21,311 nucleotides of DNA. It comes from a virus. The stretch is taken from positions 1 through 21,311 of the IMG/VR virus record IMGVR_UViG_3300036760_000501. One strand, written 5' to 3'. The translations under genes and the position numbers were made by a program. The notes beneath the pieces are model-generated. The model did no database searches and was not told the origin of the DNA. It was given only the letters and a program-made list of their open reading frames with translations. The number at the start of each line of letters is the position of its first letter. Positions within the stretch are counted from its first letter, which is position 1. Shown here piece by piece: positions 2,140 through 20,785 of the stretch.

Positions 2140-2859
2140 ATGACAAGTAAGGAACGATTAATAAAAAGACTAAAATCTCTAAAACAATATAAAGACCTTT
2201 CTCAAGATGAATTGGAGAAAGTAGTAGATAAAAAACTTGAAGAAGATGAGTTAATCAATTCTTTTGTAGGGTTGAATGAAAAAGAAAAAGAAAAAGCCCT
2301 ACAGCTCTACGACAAATACATAGGTGAAAATTCTTTTGAGAATCTAGCAGAAAAAAGTTCTTTGACAAATTTAGTATATTTGGAAGCCTTAAACGACCGA
2401 ATCAAGCTCTTCATCGAAAAGGAAGATAAGAATAAAGATGGAGCTGTTCCTATTCAAATGGTAGAACAACTTATCTCCAATAATGAACAGATAATGAAAT
2501 TGAAAGACCAATTAGGGATGATGAAGGATAAAACTAATAACTCTTTTATAGTTGCATGGGAAGAATTAAAGAAAAAAGCACTGACATACTACAGCGAACA
2601 TTGTGGGTCTACAATTGTAAAATGTCCGTATTGTCAACAACTATTTCATTTATTGATGAATATTGATAATTTGACAGCAGAAAAAAGTTCATTCTTTAAA
2701 GGTACGATGCTTTATAATTTACCACTACTCAATCTTTATCACCAAAAACGCATTACTAAAGAAGAAGTAGCTGATATATTGGGAGTACATGCTAAATATG
2801 TTGATTTTATATATTCTAACCTTTATTTAAAGGAATTGAGTAAAAATGAAGAGAAATAG
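2140..2859 (+). CDS. Protein of unknown role with zinc-type motif; possible small terminase-like
   Basis: 239 residues, mostly helical and strongly charged, with a taggaaa site before the ATG. The first 130 residues read as helices with coiled-coil character (many K, E and L). Around residues 154-170 the cluster HC...CPYCQQLFH could hold a zinc ion. Residues 204-228 (ITKEEVADILGVHAKYVDFIY) look like a helix-turn-helix. It lies directly upstream of the portal region, where many phages keep the small terminase, and a DNA-binding helical protein would suit that role, but I do not recognise the family. The large terminase is more than 10 kb away, which weakens the argument. It is the only gene here ending in TAG. 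Its last 14 bases overlap the following HNH gene. Confidence 0.6.
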   Translation: MTSKERLIKRLKSLKQYKDLSQDELEKVVDKKLEEDELINSFVGLNEKEKEKALQLYDKYIGENSFENLAEKSSLTNLVYLEALNDRIKLFIEKEDKNKDGAVPIQMVEQLISNNEQIMKLKDQLGMMKDKTNNSFIVAWEELKKKALTYYSEHCGSTIVKCPYCQQLFHLLMNIDNLTAEKSSFFKGTMLYNLPLLNLYHQKRITKEEVADILGVHAKYVDFIYSNLYLKELSKNEEK

Positions 2860-3412
2860 ATGTATTGACTGTAAAAAATTACTGGGAATTAAATCTTTTT
2901 GGAAACATACAAAAAGGTGTCGAAAATGCTATGCTAAATGGTTTAAAATTTCTTCTAATAATTCTAATTTTAAACATGGAGAAACATTAAAAAATCATCA
3001 TTGTATTATTTGTAGAATAAATAAGATTTGTTATAATAATTTTATTGATGGAACTAGAAAATGTCGTTCTTGTGCTAGTAAAGAAATATTTAAAAATCCA
3101 AAGAAAAACCCTTGGTTTATTCATGGAAATGGAAGAAATCCCTATTCCACTGAATTTAATAATAATTTAAAGGAAAAAATCAGAAACAGAGATAAATATC
3201 AATGTAAAAAATGCAATAAAATACAAGAACAGGAATTAAAAGATTTGCATATAAAATTAGCAGTTCATCACATAGATTATAATAAGAAAAATTGTAATGA
3301 GAATAATTTAATTACTTTATGCCACAATTGTCATTCTACAACAAAAGGAAATAGAAAGTATTGGAAAAAATTTTATAGTGCCAAAATTTTAACTATAAAA
3401 GAAAAGGAGTAA
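2846..3412 (+). CDS. Free-standing HNH homing-type endonuclease with zinc ribbons
   Basis: 188 residues. The N-terminal half carries paired CxxC knuckles (C6/C9 with C25/C28, C53/C56 with C73/C76), probably DNA-binding zinc ribbons. The C-terminal half is a clear HNH nuclease: the LKEKIRNRDKYQC lead-in at 108-120, C120/C123, HH at 141-142, N154 and C159/C162 in AVHHIDYNKKNCNENNLITLCHNC. Such proteins nick or cut DNA at a target site and spread their own gene into lacking genomes. The gene overlaps the previous gene by 14 bases and ends 4 bases before the portal gene. Its last codons (aag gag taa) form the portal Shine-Dalgarno site. It is visibly richer in A and T than its neighbours and is related to the HNH protein at 13025. 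A role as a packaging-associated HNH is less likely given the zinc ribbons. Confidence 0.88.
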   Translation: MKRNRCIDCKKLLGIKSFWKHTKRCRKCYAKWFKISSNNSNFKHGETLKNHHCIICRINKICYNNFIDGTRKCRSCASKEIFKNPKKNPWFIHGNGRNPYSTEFNNNLKEKIRNRDKYQCKKCNKIQEQELKDLHIKLAVHHIDYNKKNCNENNLITLCHNCHSTTKGNRKYWKKFYSAKILTIKEKE

Positions 3413-3416
3413 TAAT

Positions 3417-5102
3417 ATGGCTAACGCACTTCCAATGTTTGAACAATTTCTCAATTACTTATATCAGACTGGAGAAATCTCTGTACCAGAAAATTATCAT
3501 GAGAGATGTGGTAAAGTGGAAGAGATGTTGGATAACGATATTTCTGGAATGGTCAATTCTCTTTTAGATTATGCTGTGAATTCATCTTCTGAAGCGAATT
3601 ATAGAGTAGAATGTTCTGAACCTACTCTTCAGAAATTATTGAATCTCTGGTTAGACCAGATTAATTTAGAGATTAAAGGCATCCCCACTGGTCTCCAGGC
3701 TCTTTCTACCGAATATTTCAGAGAAAGGTGGGAAGGTTCTTCGTTTTGTATTTTGAGAATAAAAGACTGGCAAAAAATTACAGCAGATAATATTACAATT
3801 GAAGTACCTACTACAATGTGGTTTGTAAATGGTGGTTCTATTTATGTTACTAGACCCAAAGATAAAAATTATCAATTGGGTTCTGACAAATATTATTTAG
3901 ATAAAGAAGCAAAAGTTGAAATTCCAGAAAATAAAAAAGAAAAAATAATTATACAAAAACCTTATGATAGATGGTTCGACCAATATTCAACACCCTACCT
4001 TATTAGAAAAGGTGTATATAAAAATTGGTTAGCTATGAAAACATTACAGGATAAATCTGATGAAGTAATAGCTAAGATTTTACCTTATTTATTTTTAATC
4101 TCAAAAGGTACCGAAAATATGTTTATACAGGGTGAAGTTGATTATTCCGATGAAGAGTTAAAGACCTTGACTGACAATTTTAAGGACCAACTTGAAAAAT
4201 ATAAAGGACAAAGAGGGGGAACTCCACTGAATGCAGTTCCTTTTGACCAAAAATATGAACATTTAATTCCTGATTTAAGAAATATTCTAACTGAGGAACT
4301 ATATCGTCAGGGAGTCAGGGCTATGTTAGCTGGTCTTGGATTTATTGATATGTTAGAAATCACTCCTTCCAGACAAGAAGATAGATTGAATCCAAAACCA
4401 TTTTTAGCAGAAGTTAATAATGGAGTGGCTGGCTTTAAAGCTATGTTATTAGAAACAATTTATTTAATAATAGATAGAAATAAAGCAAGTCATCGTAAAT
4501 TATTTAGTGATTCAGGAAAAATTATAGTTATAAATTCTCCACTGAAAATTAATACAGAGAAAATACTTGATGCTATTCGTTCTGGATTTGACAGAGGTAC
4601 TTTAAGTTTACAATCTTATACAGAAACATTAGGATTTGATTATCCAACAGAGAAAGAACTGAGAAGTAAAGAATTAGAAAATGGTGATGAAGATTTAATG
4701 TATCCTCATATGATTCAGAATACCGAAAAGGACCCAAATACTAATGTTCAACCTTCGAAACCACAGAATCCGAAAAATGAAAATCAGAATAAATTAAAAA
4801 ATACACCAGAAACAAAAACAAAGACTGCTGAAGTGATTAATGAACCTATAGACCCAAATTTAGAAGTAATAAATCCCAATGAGTTAGAAATGGCTCCTTA
4901 TGATAAATCCAACCCCCCAGCATTTTTAAAGAAATATCCTGCTGGAGCTATTGATGTATTTATTACTGTATTTAATGAATCTTATCCAAAAGGAGAAGAT
5001 TATGCCTTCCCAGTGGCTTGGACAGCATTAAAAAGATGGATGAAAAAACATGGTTATCATAAAGAAGGTGAGAAATGGGTAAAATCTCAGGAGATAAAAT
5101 AA
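3417..5102 (+). CDS. Portal protein with C-terminal ChaB-like domain
   Basis: 561 residues. The body matches the phage portal pattern: an N-terminal helical region (MLDNDISGMVNSLLDYAV), a beta-rich wing with FRERWEGSSFCILRIKDW, a long stem-helix region (KTLQDKSDEVIAKILPYLFLISKG) and a crown-like helical part after residue 290. Portals form the dodecameric ring through which DNA enters the head and on which the neck is built. The last 62 residues (500-561, with AWTALKRWMKKHGYHKEGEKW) resemble the small ChaB domain, which turns up in phage head proteins with unknown role. Residues 474-482 are INEPIDPNL, also found at residues 14-22 of the capsid protein. Its ribosome site is inside the HNH gene just before it. 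The TAA stop shares its last A with the next ATG. Confidence 0.85.
   Translation: MANALPMFEQFLNYLYQTGEISVPENYHERCGKVEEMLDNDISGMVNSLLDYAVNSSSEANYRVECSEPTLQKLLNLWLDQINLEIKGIPTGLQALSTEYFRERWEGSSFCILRIKDWQKITADNITIEVPTTMWFVNGGSIYVTRPKDKNYQLGSDKYYLDKEAKVEIPENKKEKIIIQKPYDRWFDQYSTPYLIRKGVYKNWLAMKTLQDKSDEVIAKILPYLFLISKGTENMFIQGEVDYSDEELKTLTDNFKDQLEKYKGQRGGTPLNAVPFDQKYEHLIPDLRNILTEELYRQGVRAMLAGLGFIDMLEITPSRQEDRLNPKPFLAEVNNGVAGFKAMLLETIYLIIDRNKASHRKLFSDSGKIIVINSPLKINTEKILDAIRSGFDRGTLSLQSYTETLGFDYPTEKELRSKELENGDEDLMYPHMIQNTEKDPNTNVQPSKPQNPKNENQNKLKNTPETKTKTAEVINEPIDPNLEVINPNELEMAPYDKSNPPAFLKKYPAGAIDVFITVFNESYPKGEDYAFPVAWTALKRWMKKHGYHKEGEKWVKSQEIK
4836..4862 (+). other. Shared-peptide segment INEPIDPNL, portal copy
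   Basis: Codons 474-482 of the portal gene encode INEPIDPNL. The same nine residues are encoded at 6833-6859 near the start of the capsid gene. The two DNA stretches differ at four of 27 positions, all third-position synonymous changes. Both copies are followed within about 10 residues by a P-x-E-L or P-N-E-L stretch. Confidence 0.9.
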
Positions 5103-6706
5103 TGGATAATAAAAAATTAATAGCGGAAGCATTACTTGATTTAGCAAAAAACTCTTTAACTACTATTATCGAGGTATCTGATGATAAAGAATTAATTGCT
5201 GCTGCTAAAATAATAGGAATAGTAGTTCCATCACCCGATTTGGCAGTATTAAAAACGGTTTATGCCGAAATAGATAAGGCAAATAGGAATGGAGTTGTTT
5301 TACCAAAAAATGCAGTAGAAAAAGGATTACCTACATTAATTGGTAAACAGATAAACTGGGAACATGAAGGTGCTGGAAGAATTTGTGGATATATTATTGA
5401 TGCAAAAATAAATGAAAATAAAATCGAGATAATTGGTGTAGTATTTAAATCTTTATTTCCAGATGAGATGGTAGGAGTCAAAGAGAAATTTGCAGATAAA
5501 GAGTTAGCAGTTTCTTTTGAAATCTGGAATCGAAATCCCGAAGATGGAGAATCAGTAGTACACGAATTAGCAAATGGTTTTCGTTCTATTGACCCCATTA
5601 TATTTCATGGTTGCGGTTTACTTTTAGCGAATCAACCAGCTTGTCCTAAAGCCATAGTATATAAATTAATAGCAAGCAAAGAAATCGAAGCAGCAGAAAA
5701 AATAGTAGATAAAATATTTGAAGAGAACTTAATTTGTGCAAGTATGGCTATAGAAGAGCCAAAGTGCAAAAATTGTACATCTTGTACATGCGAAAAGGAG
5801 GGACAAAAAGTGGAAGAAATAAAGTTAGAAGAGATTTTAGTCAATGATTATGAAGGCGGAGAAATAGAGGAAGCTGCGAAATTAACTACTGAACAACGTA
5901 ATGCATTACCTGATAGTGATTTTGCGTTGATTCAGGAAAGAGATGGTAAAAAGGTTCGTAGATTCCCAATTAATGATGAAGCACATGTTAGAAATGCTCT
6001 TGCTCGTTTGCCCCAGGCAAAAGACATAACAGAGGAAGAGAGAACAAGTGCACTGGCAAAGATTTTGAAAAAAGCCAAAGCATTGAATATGACAGAATTG
6101 TTAAAGAAATATGAAAAATCTTCCGAAGAAACCCAGACTGAAGTTAAAACAGAGGAAACCAAGCCAGTAGATGCTGGTGTTGAAACGAAACCTGTAGAAA
6201 CAAAAGTCGAAGAAACGAAGGAAGAAATTAAAACAGAAGCTGTTTTCTCACCTATTGACAAAAAAGTTGTATGTGTCGTAAATGAAGAGACAACCACTAT
6301 AACTGATACAATGGATGGTAAAGTTGAAAGAAAAGGCATGAGGAAAACTACTAGAAAATTCGACGATGGTACTGAAGAAGTATTTGCAGAAGAATTTCAA
6401 GCAGTAAGTACTTATACTCAGGCTCAAGTCGATGAGCAAGTTAATACTGCAAAATCCGAAAAGGATGCAGAAATTACTGCTCTAAAAGTTGAGCATGATA
6501 AAACCTTACAGGCTAAAGATGAAGAATTAAAAAATAAAAATACAGAACTTGAGCAAAAGACTCAAGAGATTGCTAAGTTGACGGTAGTCGAAGAGCCCAA
6601 AACAGAAAAGATAATGACTGTCGGGGCTGTTGAGACAGAAAAAATTAGTGAAATAAAAAGGCAAGCAAAAAAAATCAATGATATAATTGCTTCCAAACAT
6701 AGTTAA
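5102..6706 (+). CDS. Prohead protease fused to scaffold-like coiled coil
   Basis: 534 residues from the ATG at 5102, chosen because caggag lies 8 bases before it and its A is the last base of the portal TAA. A start at 5075 would have no well-spaced site. Residues 60-185 look like the herpes/HK97-type prohead protease fold: NWEHEG with candidate catalytic His88 and ELAVSFEI with candidate Ser138. A Cys cluster at 222-230 (CKNCTSCTC) may bind metal. Residues 262-330 match a module frequent in phage protease/structural proteins (LTTEQRNALPDSDFAL, RRFPINDEAHVRNALARL). A repetitive T/E/K-rich linker (340-380) leads to a long coiled coil (about 440-495) typical of scaffolds. It probably guides capsid assembly and then cleaves the scaffold. 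Gene order, between portal and capsid, agrees. Confidence 0.82.
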   Translation: MDNKKLIAEALLDLAKNSLTTIIEVSDDKELIAAAKIIGIVVPSPDLAVLKTVYAEIDKANRNGVVLPKNAVEKGLPTLIGKQINWEHEGAGRICGYIIDAKINENKIEIIGVVFKSLFPDEMVGVKEKFADKELAVSFEIWNRNPEDGESVVHELANGFRSIDPIIFHGCGLLLANQPACPKAIVYKLIASKEIEAAEKIVDKIFEENLICASMAIEEPKCKNCTSCTCEKEGQKVEEIKLEEILVNDYEGGEIEEAAKLTTEQRNALPDSDFALIQERDGKKVRRFPINDEAHVRNALARLPQAKDITEEERTSALAKILKKAKALNMTELLKKYEKSSEETQTEVKTEETKPVDAGVETKPVETKVEETKEEIKTEAVFSPIDKKVVCVVNEETTTITDTMDGKVERKGMRKTTRKFDDGTEEVFAEEFQAVSTYTQAQVDEQVNTAKSEKDAEITALKVEHDKTLQAKDEELKNKNTELEQKTQEIAKLTVVEEPKTEKIMTVGAVETEKISEIKRQAKKINDIIASKHS

Positions 6707-6793
6707 TCCCCCTAAGATAAGGGAGAGATAAGCAAAAGGTATAAGCCTAGCTTAAAGATAGAACAAAAAAAAAAAAGAAAAAGGAGAACTAAA
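6707..6793 (+). promoter_or_regulatory. A-rich leader and strong ribosome site of the capsid gene
   Basis: This 87-base spacer holds a run of 12 A residues (6765-6776), then gaaa and a strong aaggag (6781-6786) placed 7 bases before the capsid ATG. A-rich leaders keep mRNA unstructured and favour ribosome loading, which fits the most heavily made virion protein. A 4-bp inverted repeat near 6710-6723 is too weak to call a terminator. No convincing promoter was seen. Confidence 0.45.
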
Positions 6794-7741
6794 ATGGAGC
6801 GAAAAGATGTAATCGAAAGAGCTTATCAGCTTATTAATGAGCCGATAGACCCTAATTTGAGATGCCCGATTGAGTTAATGGACATCGTGAATTATCGTGA
6901 ATCTGATGCTGGAGAGACTGTTGAGTATTTTGCTTCTTCTGCACAGGATAGAGCTGCTGATGATATTTATGCTGCGTCTGCTGTTGGTACTATAGTTTAT
7001 AATAAAATAGCGTTGAAGACCGTTCTTCCTTTGACATTTGTTGGTTTGCAGTCAAAGTTAGAAACAATATTGATTGAAGAGATTTTGAATTCTAAAGACC
7101 AGTCCGCCCTGGCTGCGAAGAAAGATGGTATTATTCGTGCTATGGATTGTGAGGAAGTTCGTAGAATTCTTAATCTAGTGTTAGCAGTTCCTTCCCAGAA
7201 GATTACCAAAGTCGCTGGCGAAGATTTGCTTGATGTTATTATCAGAATGAAACAGTTAGTGTCTGATTATGCTACAGACTATGTTTTGTTAGTAGCTTCT
7301 GATGTTATGAATAAAATCGAATCTTATGATAAAGAAAATGTAGATAATTTTCATTATAAAATGGAGATTATGGCTGAGATAGCAAAGTTAGGTATTGCGA
7401 AAGTCGTTAAAGTTCTCGGAAATTCTGGTTTAGCTGCTGGCGATACCCCAGTTATTGCTGCTGGAAAAGCAATTTTAGTGGGTCGCAATTCTAGTTTAGC
7501 TGCTGGTAGACCTATTACCTTTTTGCGTAGAAAATTCGCAAAAGAAATAGCTGAACTTAGTGGTGCTGCCGAGGGTGCAGTTCGTTTAATTGATGTTGCA
7601 AAGACACCTACAGTTATTAATGGTGCTGGTGCGAATACATTAGGTTATGGCGTATTTGGTTATGAATCTATTATACAGGTTCTAACTAATTACAGAGCTG
7701 TTTCTTTCAGTGAAAATATTATAGCTGTTATTGCTCCATAA
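6794..7741 (+). CDS. Major capsid protein (HK97 fold inferred)
   Basis: 315 residues, preceded by an A-rich leader and a strong ribosome site. It sits directly after the protease/scaffold gene, the usual place for the capsid subunit. It has a helical N-terminal arm, then alpha/beta segments consistent with the HK97 fold (EILNSKDQSALAAKKDGIIRAMD, TDYVLLVASDVM, ILVGRNSSLAAGRPITFLRRKF, GYGVFGYESIIQVLTNYRAVSF). Codon choice shifts toward cgt, gct and gtt and away from the very AT-rich codons of neighbours, a usual sign of heavy expression. Residues 14-22 (INEPIDPNL) recur in the portal. No long removable N-terminal delta domain is present, in line with a separate scaffold in the preceding gene. 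A hairpin follows the stop. Confidence 0.87.
   Translation: MERKDVIERAYQLINEPIDPNLRCPIELMDIVNYRESDAGETVEYFASSAQDRAADDIYAASAVGTIVYNKIALKTVLPLTFVGLQSKLETILIEEILNSKDQSALAAKKDGIIRAMDCEEVRRILNLVLAVPSQKITKVAGEDLLDVIIRMKQLVSDYATDYVLLVASDVMNKIESYDKENVDNFHYKMEIMAEIAKLGIAKVVKVLGNSGLAAGDTPVIAAGKAILVGRNSSLAAGRPITFLRRKFAKEIAELSGAAEGAVRLIDVAKTPTVINGAGANTLGYGVFGYESIIQVLTNYRAVSFSENIIAVIAP
6833..6859 (+). other. Shared-peptide segment INEPIDPNL, capsid copy
   Basis: Codons 14-22 of the capsid gene encode the same nine residues found in the portal at 474-482. The position, in the N-terminal arm, is where capsid subunits often contact scaffold or are trimmed by the maturation protease. Confidence 0.9.
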
Positions 7742-12798: not shown

Positions 12799-13035
12799 AT
12801 GGAAAAAAATATCTTATTAGATGAACAACTTCTAAAATTTCTTCTGACTCAAGCCTCTCAGAAAGCGGTCGGAAAATGCATGAAGAGATTCGAACTTTCT
12901 GATAATAAAGAAGAAATTAAAAAACAAATTAAGGAACTTCTTTATGAATGTTTTCGGGATTTATCTGATTCTATTATTAATTGTAGTAAGACAGATAATG
13001 CAATACATTTAACAAAAGGCGAAAATGCTAAGTAA
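12799..13035 (+). CDS. Small hypothetical protein upstream of terminase region
   Basis: 78 residues from the ATG at 12799, with gagga just upstream. A TTG-started reading from 12775 would begin inside the terminator stem and is rejected. The protein is helical and charged (EQLLKFLLTQASQKAVGKCMKRFEL, NKEEIKKQIKELLYECFRDLSDSI) with no motif I recognise. It is separated from the large terminase only by an HNH gene, so before that insertion it may have been the direct neighbour of the terminase; a small helical partner such as a small terminase subunit is conceivable but it is shorter than most. Its last 11 bases overlap the HNH gene. Confidence 0.6.
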   Translation: MEKNILLDEQLLKFLLTQASQKAVGKCMKRFELSDNKEEIKKQIKELLYECFRDLSDSIINCSKTDNAIHLTKGENAK

Positions 13036-13573
13036 ATGTTTAGATTGTAAAAGAGAAATAGACAAACGAGCCAAAAGGTGTTGTAAATGTTATCATAAAC
13101 ATCAAATAGGTTCTGAGAATGGAAATTATAAACAAGGAAAATATATTAGAAATGAATGTATTGATTGTAAAAAGAAAGTCGACCCAAGAGCAAAAAGATG
13201 CAAAAGTTGTGCTGCTCAATATAAATGGAAAGTTAGTATAGGGTTAATTCATAGAAATCAAACAGGAAATAAAAATCCAAACTGGATAGATGGTAGAAGT
13301 TATGAACCATATCCTTTAGAATTTACAGAAGAACTTAAAGATAAGATTCGCCAACGTGATAATTATACTTGTCAAAACTGTGGTATGACAGAAGAGGAAC
13401 ATTTAATAGTTATAGGTCAAGTTTTACATGTTCATCATATTGATTATGATAAAACAAACTGCAAAAAAGAGAACTTATTGAGTTTATGCAGTTCTTGCAA
13501 TACAAGAGCGAATTATAACAGAACATATTGGCAGAAATTTTATAAAGGAAAAATTCAATGCTTACAAAAATAA
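13025..13573 (+). CDS. Free-standing HNH homing-type endonuclease next to large terminase
   Basis: 182 residues. Two zinc-ribbon units (C5/C8 with C19-C22, C45/C48 with C59/C62) share the text pattern CxDCK...RAKRC, suggesting an internal duplication. Then NPNWIDGRSYEPYP leads into the HNH nuclease: LKDKIRQRDNYTCQNCG (C116/C119), HVHHIDYDKTNC (H137, H138), N150 and C155/C158. It resembles the protein at 2846 in domain order and motif spacing. It overlaps the upstream gene by 11 bases and the terminase gene by 16 bases, and its aaagga near 13545 serves as the terminase ribosome site. HNH proteins beside terminase genes can act in packaging, but the zinc ribbons and similarity to the other free-standing copies favour a homing role. 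Confidence 0.88.
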   Translation: MLSKCLDCKREIDKRAKRCCKCYHKHQIGSENGNYKQGKYIRNECIDCKKKVDPRAKRCKSCAAQYKWKVSIGLIHRNQTGNKNPNWIDGRSYEPYPLEFTEELKDKIRQRDNYTCQNCGMTEEEHLIVIGQVLHVHHIDYDKTNCKKENLLSLCSSCNTRANYNRTYWQKFYKGKIQCLQK

Positions 13574-20230: not shown

Positions 20231-20785
20231 ATGAAAAAAATCTGTAGCAATTGTAAAAAAGAAAAATTTTTAAAAGAATTTCATCAAGATAAAAGAGCAA
20301 AAGATGGATTGCGTTGTGAATGTATATTATGTAGAAAACAAGATTCTAAAGAATATTATTTAAAAAATAAAATAAGAATTAAAAAACAAACTAAAATATA
20401 TCGAGAAGTCCATAAAGAAGAACAAAAAGATTATAGTAGAATATATAAAAATAAAAGAAGAAAAACCGATATAGATTTTAGATTATTAGAATGTTTACGT
20501 AATAGATTGCATTGGGCTTTAAAAAATAATAACAAAATACAAAAAACAATTAATTTAATCGGATGCAATATTAAATTTTTAAAAAAATATTTAGAAAATC
20601 AATTCAAATCAAATATGTCTTGGGATAATTATGGTCTTTGGCATATAGACCATATTAAACCATGTTGTACGTTTGATTTATCGAAAACAAGCGAACAAAG
20701 AAAATGTTTTAATTTTAAAAATTTAAGACCACTGTGGAAAATAGAAAATTTACAAAGACCGAAAGGATTAAAATGTCTGAATTAA
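20231..20785 (+). CDS. HNH endonuclease (IDHI-type) with N-terminal zinc knuckle, free-standing
   Basis: 184 residues. The N-terminal part has C5/C8 and C31/C34, a zinc-knuckle pair, then a long basic helix with Y/K-rich repeats (YYLKNKIRIKKQTKIY, DYSRIYKNKRRK). The C-terminal nuclease follows the pattern LIGCNIKFLKKYLENQF, GLWHIDHIKPCCTFDLS, CFNFKNLRPLW, IENLQ, with H138, D140, H141 and N164/N173 as likely active-site residues. This HNH type differs from those at 2846 and 13025. No Shine-Dalgarno site is visible; two hairpins precede it. The end overlaps the next gene by 13 bases and supplies its aaagga site. It is very AT-rich compared with the structural genes around it. Confidence 0.85.
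   Translation: MKKICSNCKKEKFLKEFHQDKRAKDGLRCECILCRKQDSKEYYLKNKIRIKKQTKIYREVHKEEQKDYSRIYKNKRRKTDIDFRLLECLRNRLHWALKNNNKIQKTINLIGCNIKFLKKYLENQFKSNMSWDNYGLWHIDHIKPCCTFDLSKTSEQRKCFNFKNLRPLWKIENLQRPKGLKCLN

Follow-up and report, generated by a model that had tools for sequence, protein, structure and literature searches.

The window, that is, the whole stretch of 21,311 bases analysed here, is the record of an uncultivated virus and carries a head-gene cluster ordered portal, presumed protease/scaffold, capsid. The portal gene (3417-5102, plus strand) encodes a protein of 561 aa with a core reaching to about residue 430, a linker (residues 439-490) and a C-terminal ChaB-like domain (about residues 500-557), the last being assigned from a weak Pfam match (E 0.0071) below the Pfam cut-off. 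As modelled (mean pLDDT 76.3), the 3417-5102 product has a portal fold: a Foldseek search of the PDB returned 11 chains at E 0.001 or less, all of them portal, neck or connector entries (phage 812, Bas63, P7-1, Sf14, lambda, Milano, G20C and Chi). The capsid gene (6794-7741, plus strand) encodes 315 aa, and its product belongs, according to an AlphaFold2 model built from an alignment of 48 sequences (mean pLDDT 79.8) and Foldseek, to the major capsid proteins with HK97 fold. Phage capsids and encapsulins were the structural matches in the PDB (best E 4.2e-9), and a second structure comparison gave Z scores of 14.2 to the HK97 mature capsid (1ohg_A) and of up to 16.5 to encapsulins. In most encapsulin rows the model was aligned from residue 5-9 on, and its N-terminal helix (residues 6-14) lies inside the stretch aligned to the encapsulin starts. 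Sequence-family matches were weak (phrog_2522 in 2 and SU10_MCP in 1 of 48 members), and comparing the capsid profile with PDB sequences yielded chance-level matches only.

Between portal and capsid lies the gene of a presumed maturation protease fused to a scaffold (5102-6706, plus strand; ATG at 5102, the listed ORF opening at 5075), so named from gene order and H/S motifs. Residues 268-334 of the ORF match phrog_16160, and for the N-terminal protease domain no clear Pfam or PHROG match was obtained with the window protein and six relatives. A histidine (H88) and a serine (S138, within AVSFEIW) are conserved in all three protease/scaffold relatives that were aligned. Elsewhere in the window, positions 278-2107 encode a putative fibre or appendage protein with a collagen-like GPTGPTG run, and three ORFs resembling HNH-type endonucleases, named by eye from their motifs, are found between head and tail genes (2846-3412, 13025-13573 and 20231-20785); such ORFs occupy different places in relatives L001 and L002.

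Portal and capsid share the peptide INEPIDPNL. It occupies residues 474-482 of the portal (4836-4862, plus strand) and residues 14-22 of the capsid (6833-6859, plus strand), directly after the N-terminal helix of the latter. The identity pointed out in an earlier, sequence-only reading was recovered from both ORF translations, and codon comparison confirmed its count of four silent third-position differences (ATT AAT GAA CCT ATA GAC CCA AAT TTA in the portal, ATT AAT GAG CCG ATA GAC CCT AAT TTG in the capsid). If the peptide is encoded twice, independently and with the codon usage of the window, the average number of differing positions is 4.1, and four or fewer differences are expected with a probability of 0.60. 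The DNA likeness is thus what codon usage alone predicts and gives no sign of a recent DNA copy, which leaves a recent duplication unsupported. Among the 26 window proteins (6779 aa) INEPIDPNL is the only peptide of at least seven residues common to two of them; in 500 shuffles of these proteins the longest shared peptide had eight residues (6 of 500), and a 9-mer never occurred (0 of 500). These shuffles, together with the recurrence of the motif in relatives described below, rule out a chance origin. The weaker likeness that the same reading had seen downstream (PNELEM versus PIELMD) is present in the letters, but it is not kept in the carriers L014 and L012.

In the capsids the peptide is part of a conserved N-arm motif of the form [IL]-[GN]-[EQ]-P-[IVK]-[DN]-..., which is found near the N-terminus of all 48 distinct aligned proteins. 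Its proline (residue 17 of the window capsid) is invariant (48 of 48) and constitutes one of four invariant columns of the alignment. The residue before it is mostly Glu (35), otherwise Gln (10) or, once each, Thr, Val and Ser; the residue after it is Ile (32), Lys (5), Val (5), Leu (4) or Arg (2), followed by Asp (29), Asn (18) or Gln (1). Three versions can be distinguished: approximately [IL]NEPIDPNL in clade 1, IG[EQ]PINxQLPxP in clade 2 and IGEPxDPRK in clade 3. By contrast to this uniform presence in capsids, the portal motif is patchily distributed. Queries with portal and capsid gathered 63 contigs including the window, of which 62 have a portal, 52 a capsid, 51 both and 54 a protease/scaffold (these are counts of contigs, grouped by hand from the locus list). 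When co-occurrence was checked in these relatives, as the sequence-only reading had proposed, most proved to have the motif in the capsid only, an outcome named there as counting against the idea: a portal copy is present in 6 of the 62 portal-bearing contigs, which encode five distinct proteins (the portals of L012 and L019 are identical) from two distant portal clades, and in 4 of the 51 contigs with both genes. The row-wise comparison of portal copies with capsids (51 rows), in which three contigs are counted twice (L048/L064, L033/L068 and L047/L080) and L012/L019 is entered as one copy, has carriers in 3 rows. The motif is absent in 56 of the 62 portal-bearing contigs, among them two whose portal ORF is cut or split (L045 and L051). 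In general it can thus be dispensed with, and a universal portal motif is ruled out.

A profile of the arm motif was run against 4193 ORFs in 90 loci, which overlap, so that ORFs repeat. The best matches outside capsids were the protease/scaffold of L069 (20.9 bits) and the portals of L023 (16.7), L027 (16.6), the window (14.1), L014 (13.3) and L012/L019 (5.8), followed by a next match at 5.3 bits; by profile alone, the L012 copy is not separated from the background. A scan with 11-mers of each contig's own capsid (3323 ORFs, 70 loci) ranked portals at 52, 52, 44 and 44 and the L069 scaffold at 43, the next match being at 31; a weak case in the L068/L033 scaffold (score 24) falls within the background. 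No other clear non-capsid bearer was found among the 4193 ORFs of the profile scan, and the ranking confines clear copies to head-assembly proteins, namely the portal and one protease/scaffold. The latter placement is known from a single contig: the 1065-aa ORF of L069 (L069:6698-9892, plus strand) bears the arm motif of the clade-2 capsids at about residues 243-257 (KIIGEPINVQLPSPI), between the presumed protease domain and the scaffold part. The same ORF also holds a tandem repeat (ADLKTGKPDMDRTV). The window 5102-6706 protein is without the motif by both the 11-mer and the profile scan. In clade-2 protease domains (e.g. L048, L052 and L084) the strand of the presumed catalytic His, IGKP(I/V)(N/D/S)xxH, resembles capsid IGEP(I/V)(D/N); this likeness is probably coincidental, and we rejected IGKP(I/V)..H as a copy of the arm motif.

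The motif was also looked for in viral contigs with two patterns. A clade-1 pattern, which demands Ile at the first position and therefore misses L012/L019, matched three viral contigs, i.e. two relatives and L004; the match in L004 lies in a 2901-aa protein of an unrelated phage and is taken as chance. A clade-3 pattern matched 17 viral contigs, of which 13 belong to the family (11 capsid contigs and the portals of L023 and L027). The other four (L109, L110, L113 and L115) have no portal or capsid relative; in L109 and L110 the matches fall in unrelated ORFs, no ORF match was listed for L113 or L115, and one short ORF of L113 matches the protease/scaffold profile at 13 bits. No contig had two matches in the clade-3 scan, and a clade-3 portal carrier together with its own capsid was not found. 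The search of genome contigs found no capsid and two contigs with a portal, neither with the motif in it, and tblastn with capsid and portal against annotated phages gave no match. One contig binned as a Candidatus Lokiarchaeota MAG (L106; JAEOSD010000030.1) has a portal and a capsid like those of the viral contig L048/L064; it could be a virus that was binned wrongly, or it could point to an unusual host.

The non-capsid copies follow the version of their own capsid clade. For the four carriers with known capsid (window, L014, L012 and L069), none of the 48 capsids matches the copy better than the carrier's own, and the match extends five residues past the proline in portals and eight in L069. 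The Ile of the window and L014 is replaced by Leu in both the portal and the capsid of L012. The contigs of L023 and L027 end before the capsid gene; their copies match the clade-3 capsids of portal neighbours, with scores of 42-52 for six capsids from the portal clade of L023 and L027 and of 31-33 for a single capsid from each of the other two. The carrier label requires three or more changes on a tree of 58 distinct portals, from which L051 (split ORF) and 20 identical rows were left out, and a single change suffices in 0% of the bootstrap trees. The window and L014 portals share AEV...E around the motif, so that these two clade-1 carriers may go back to one acquisition moved by recombination. 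Counting clade 1 as possibly one acquisition, and adding the clade-3 portal and the clade-2 scaffold, at least three placements result.

Within the portal, the copy sits in a predicted-disordered stretch (residues 439-490, pLDDT below 50) between the core and the confidently modelled ChaB-like domain. This linker is, on comparison of the sequences, a swap site. The closest portal relative of the window, L009, has similar flanks (NTPETKxKTA ... APYDKxNPPAFLKKYP) and no motif, and L018 has a Zn-ribbon-like module at the place of the window motif. Zn-ribbon-like modules or another module (YIRLRQ...KAVIG) stand at this place in the linkers of L010, L018, L026, L029, L030, L041, L013, L015, L016, L028 and L033. 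Where the motif is present, it is the peptide and not the DNA that is kept: over 13 codons around the motif the window and L014 portals show six silent and no coding differences, and over 11 codons L023 and L027 show four silent and no coding differences, with unlike flanks. Judged from these alignments, the portal motif is a short linear motif maintained at the amino-acid level in a predicted-disordered tail.

What might such a peptide do? We give about an even chance to the reading that a peptide on the portal tail functionally mimics the N-terminal arm of the phage's own capsid and serves as a swappable docking peptide that tethers the portal to the shell. Inside the growing shell, the N-arm motif of the capsid would dock on a site of a capsid subunit, either its own or a neighbour's. 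On the capsomers that surround the portal vertex, sites of this kind would receive the identical peptide from the flexible portal tails, candidates being e.g. those that the missing penton would have filled. Portal and shell would thereby be tethered during assembly without matching of the 12:5 symmetry, and a scaffold bearing the same peptide, as in L069, would use the same socket. A broader version of this proposal, which we put forward more tentatively and at less than an even chance, regards the N-arm motif as a portable address tag: phages would repeatedly graft the arm peptide of their own capsid onto an internal protein that needs a tie to the shell (the portal in two clades, the scaffold in a third), where it would compete with or replace real arms in the sockets at the portal vertex. 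The shell protein itself would then be the source of an encapsulin-like targeting code, and this code would absorb the 12:5 mismatch.

Three other explanations have to be weighed against the arm mimic. Given the precedent of SPN3US, the strongest of them is a shared processing site, according to which capsid and portal, and in L069 also the maturation protease itself, would be cut by that protease at a common I/L-x-E-P site. The capsid would thereby lose about 16 residues, and the portal would be cut ahead of its ChaB-like domain; we consider this explanation rather unlikely. The T4 gp21 protease uses (L/I)-x-E, and all six copies outside the capsids do read [IL]-x-E-P with Glu before Pro; the location of the L069 copy, at about residue 243 between protease domain and scaffold part, would suit a cut as well. 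However, the invariant residue in the 48 capsids is the proline, which would be P1', a position at which serine proteases normally disfavour it. The preceding residue varies, capsids using Gln, Ser, Thr and Val besides Glu, whereas prohead-protease motifs (I/L-x-E or A/S/G-x-E) have a fixed Glu at P1 and a free residue next to it. Moreover, the clade-specific match continues 5 to 8 residues past the proline, beyond the usual protease subsites, and the site is missing from most portals and from almost all protease/scaffold proteins, which 54 contigs possess. The published precedent is close in one respect: according to the account used here, the protease of the giant phage SPN3US recognises a single AxE motif when it processes the capsid, the portal and its own C-terminus, so that in SPN3US/phiKZ-type phages, too, one motif is found in capsid, portal and protease (PMC5694885). 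It differs in that this site consists of three residues, AxE/SxE, with Glu fixed (PMC5694885), whereas the window family has a fixed Pro within a longer conserved segment.

Less probable still is the partnership suggested by the sequence-only reading, in which the 5102-6706 protein would bind the two peptides and so gather portal and capsid on one core. Scaffolds of 80alpha, P22 and phi29 contact the capsid N-arm helix (PMC12749128, PMC5644958), and in HK97 the contact between portal and capsid protein is described, in the sections drawn upon, as running largely through the scaffold domain (PMC10275583). Yet the scaffold of L069 itself bears the motif and would need to act as ligand and receptor at once, and no scaffold feature peculiar to carriers was seen in the three that were aligned. 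Docking to the capsid, or processing, fits this placement better than docking to the scaffold, and the proposed partner finds no support. The least likely explanation is a hitchhiker without a role, i.e. a capsid fragment picked up by recombination in a portal linker that is an insertion hot spot. The Zn-ribbon-like and other modules in the linkers of relatives and the patchy presence (6 of 62 contigs) would agree with it, but not the silent-only change of the motif next to diverged flanks in two pairs, its recurrence in distant clades in the version of the own capsid, or its confinement to two head-assembly proteins among 4193 ORFs. What stands of the idea of one signal recruiting both shell components is the match to the own capsid and the recurrence, both in portals of a distant clade and in a single scaffold/protease; the signal is, however, optional and repeatedly placed rather than universal. 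It is shared and recurrent, and is probably read by the capsid.

Several known systems resemble the arm mimic in part. In HK97, N-arm and scaffold alternate at one capsomer site, the N-arm moving into about the place that the scaffold left, and flexible scaffold parts bridge the portal region (PMC10275583). The likeness lies in scaffold and N-arm being in about the same place in successive states; the difference is that the HK97 scaffold is within the same polypeptide and that the consulted part of this source describes no N-arm copy in the portal (PMC10275583). The N-whisker of the T4 portal anchors to the N-arm/P-domain of gp23, and the gp23 N-fists facing the portal are disordered (PMC7136217). 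There, too, the portal is tied to the capsid at the mismatched vertex by one of its flexible ends, which assembly requires, but the whisker is N-terminal, its contacts are of a methionine-metal type and, in the portion of that report considered, no resemblance to a capsid sequence is described (PMC7136217). The 80alpha scaffold and CpmB of SaPI1 share a short conserved peptide, RIIK, that docks to the capsid interior beside the N-arm helix and in this way occurs on two internal assembly proteins; its bearers are two scaffolds, however, and the excerpted text does not describe it as a capsid copy (PMC5644958), whereas the window peptide is the capsid's own N-arm motif and sits on the portal. 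Furthermore, RIIK-type motifs lie at the scaffold C-terminus and are common to the scaffolds, while the window scaffold has no copy of the arm motif and that of L069 has it at about residue 243 of 1065.

A further parallel is the targeting (cargo-loading) peptide of encapsulins, which binds in a groove of P-domain and N-helix via a flexible linker (PMC6668986). The portal motif has in common with it the short tag, the flexible linker and, as proposed, the anchoring of an internal protein to a shell of HK97 fold. In its model the portal, an internal protein, likewise has the short motif on a linker predicted to be disordered, and encapsulins are also among the closest solved folds to the window capsid. 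The portal peptide would act like such a targeting peptide, with the shell protein's own arm as the tag. To our knowledge, no encapsulin tag copies a segment of the shell protein; the case described here differs further in that the bearer is a phage portal with capsid-clade-specific versions. Searches of the open-access literature turned up no account of a portal that copies the N-arm of a capsid. Tethering by peptides within HK97-type shells is already known, and a copy of the capsid arm on portal or scaffold would be a further form of it.

Phages differ in the way they hold a 12-fold portal in a 5-fold capsid vertex and in the way they recruit one portal per shell, and these processes are only partly understood. 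If the proposed role is true, the docking site is indicated at once, namely the N-arm socket, and the arm peptide would be usable to load chosen proteins into phage shells. For the phages themselves, a capsid arm that is repeatedly grafted onto portal or scaffold would then represent a simple and general solution to this problem.
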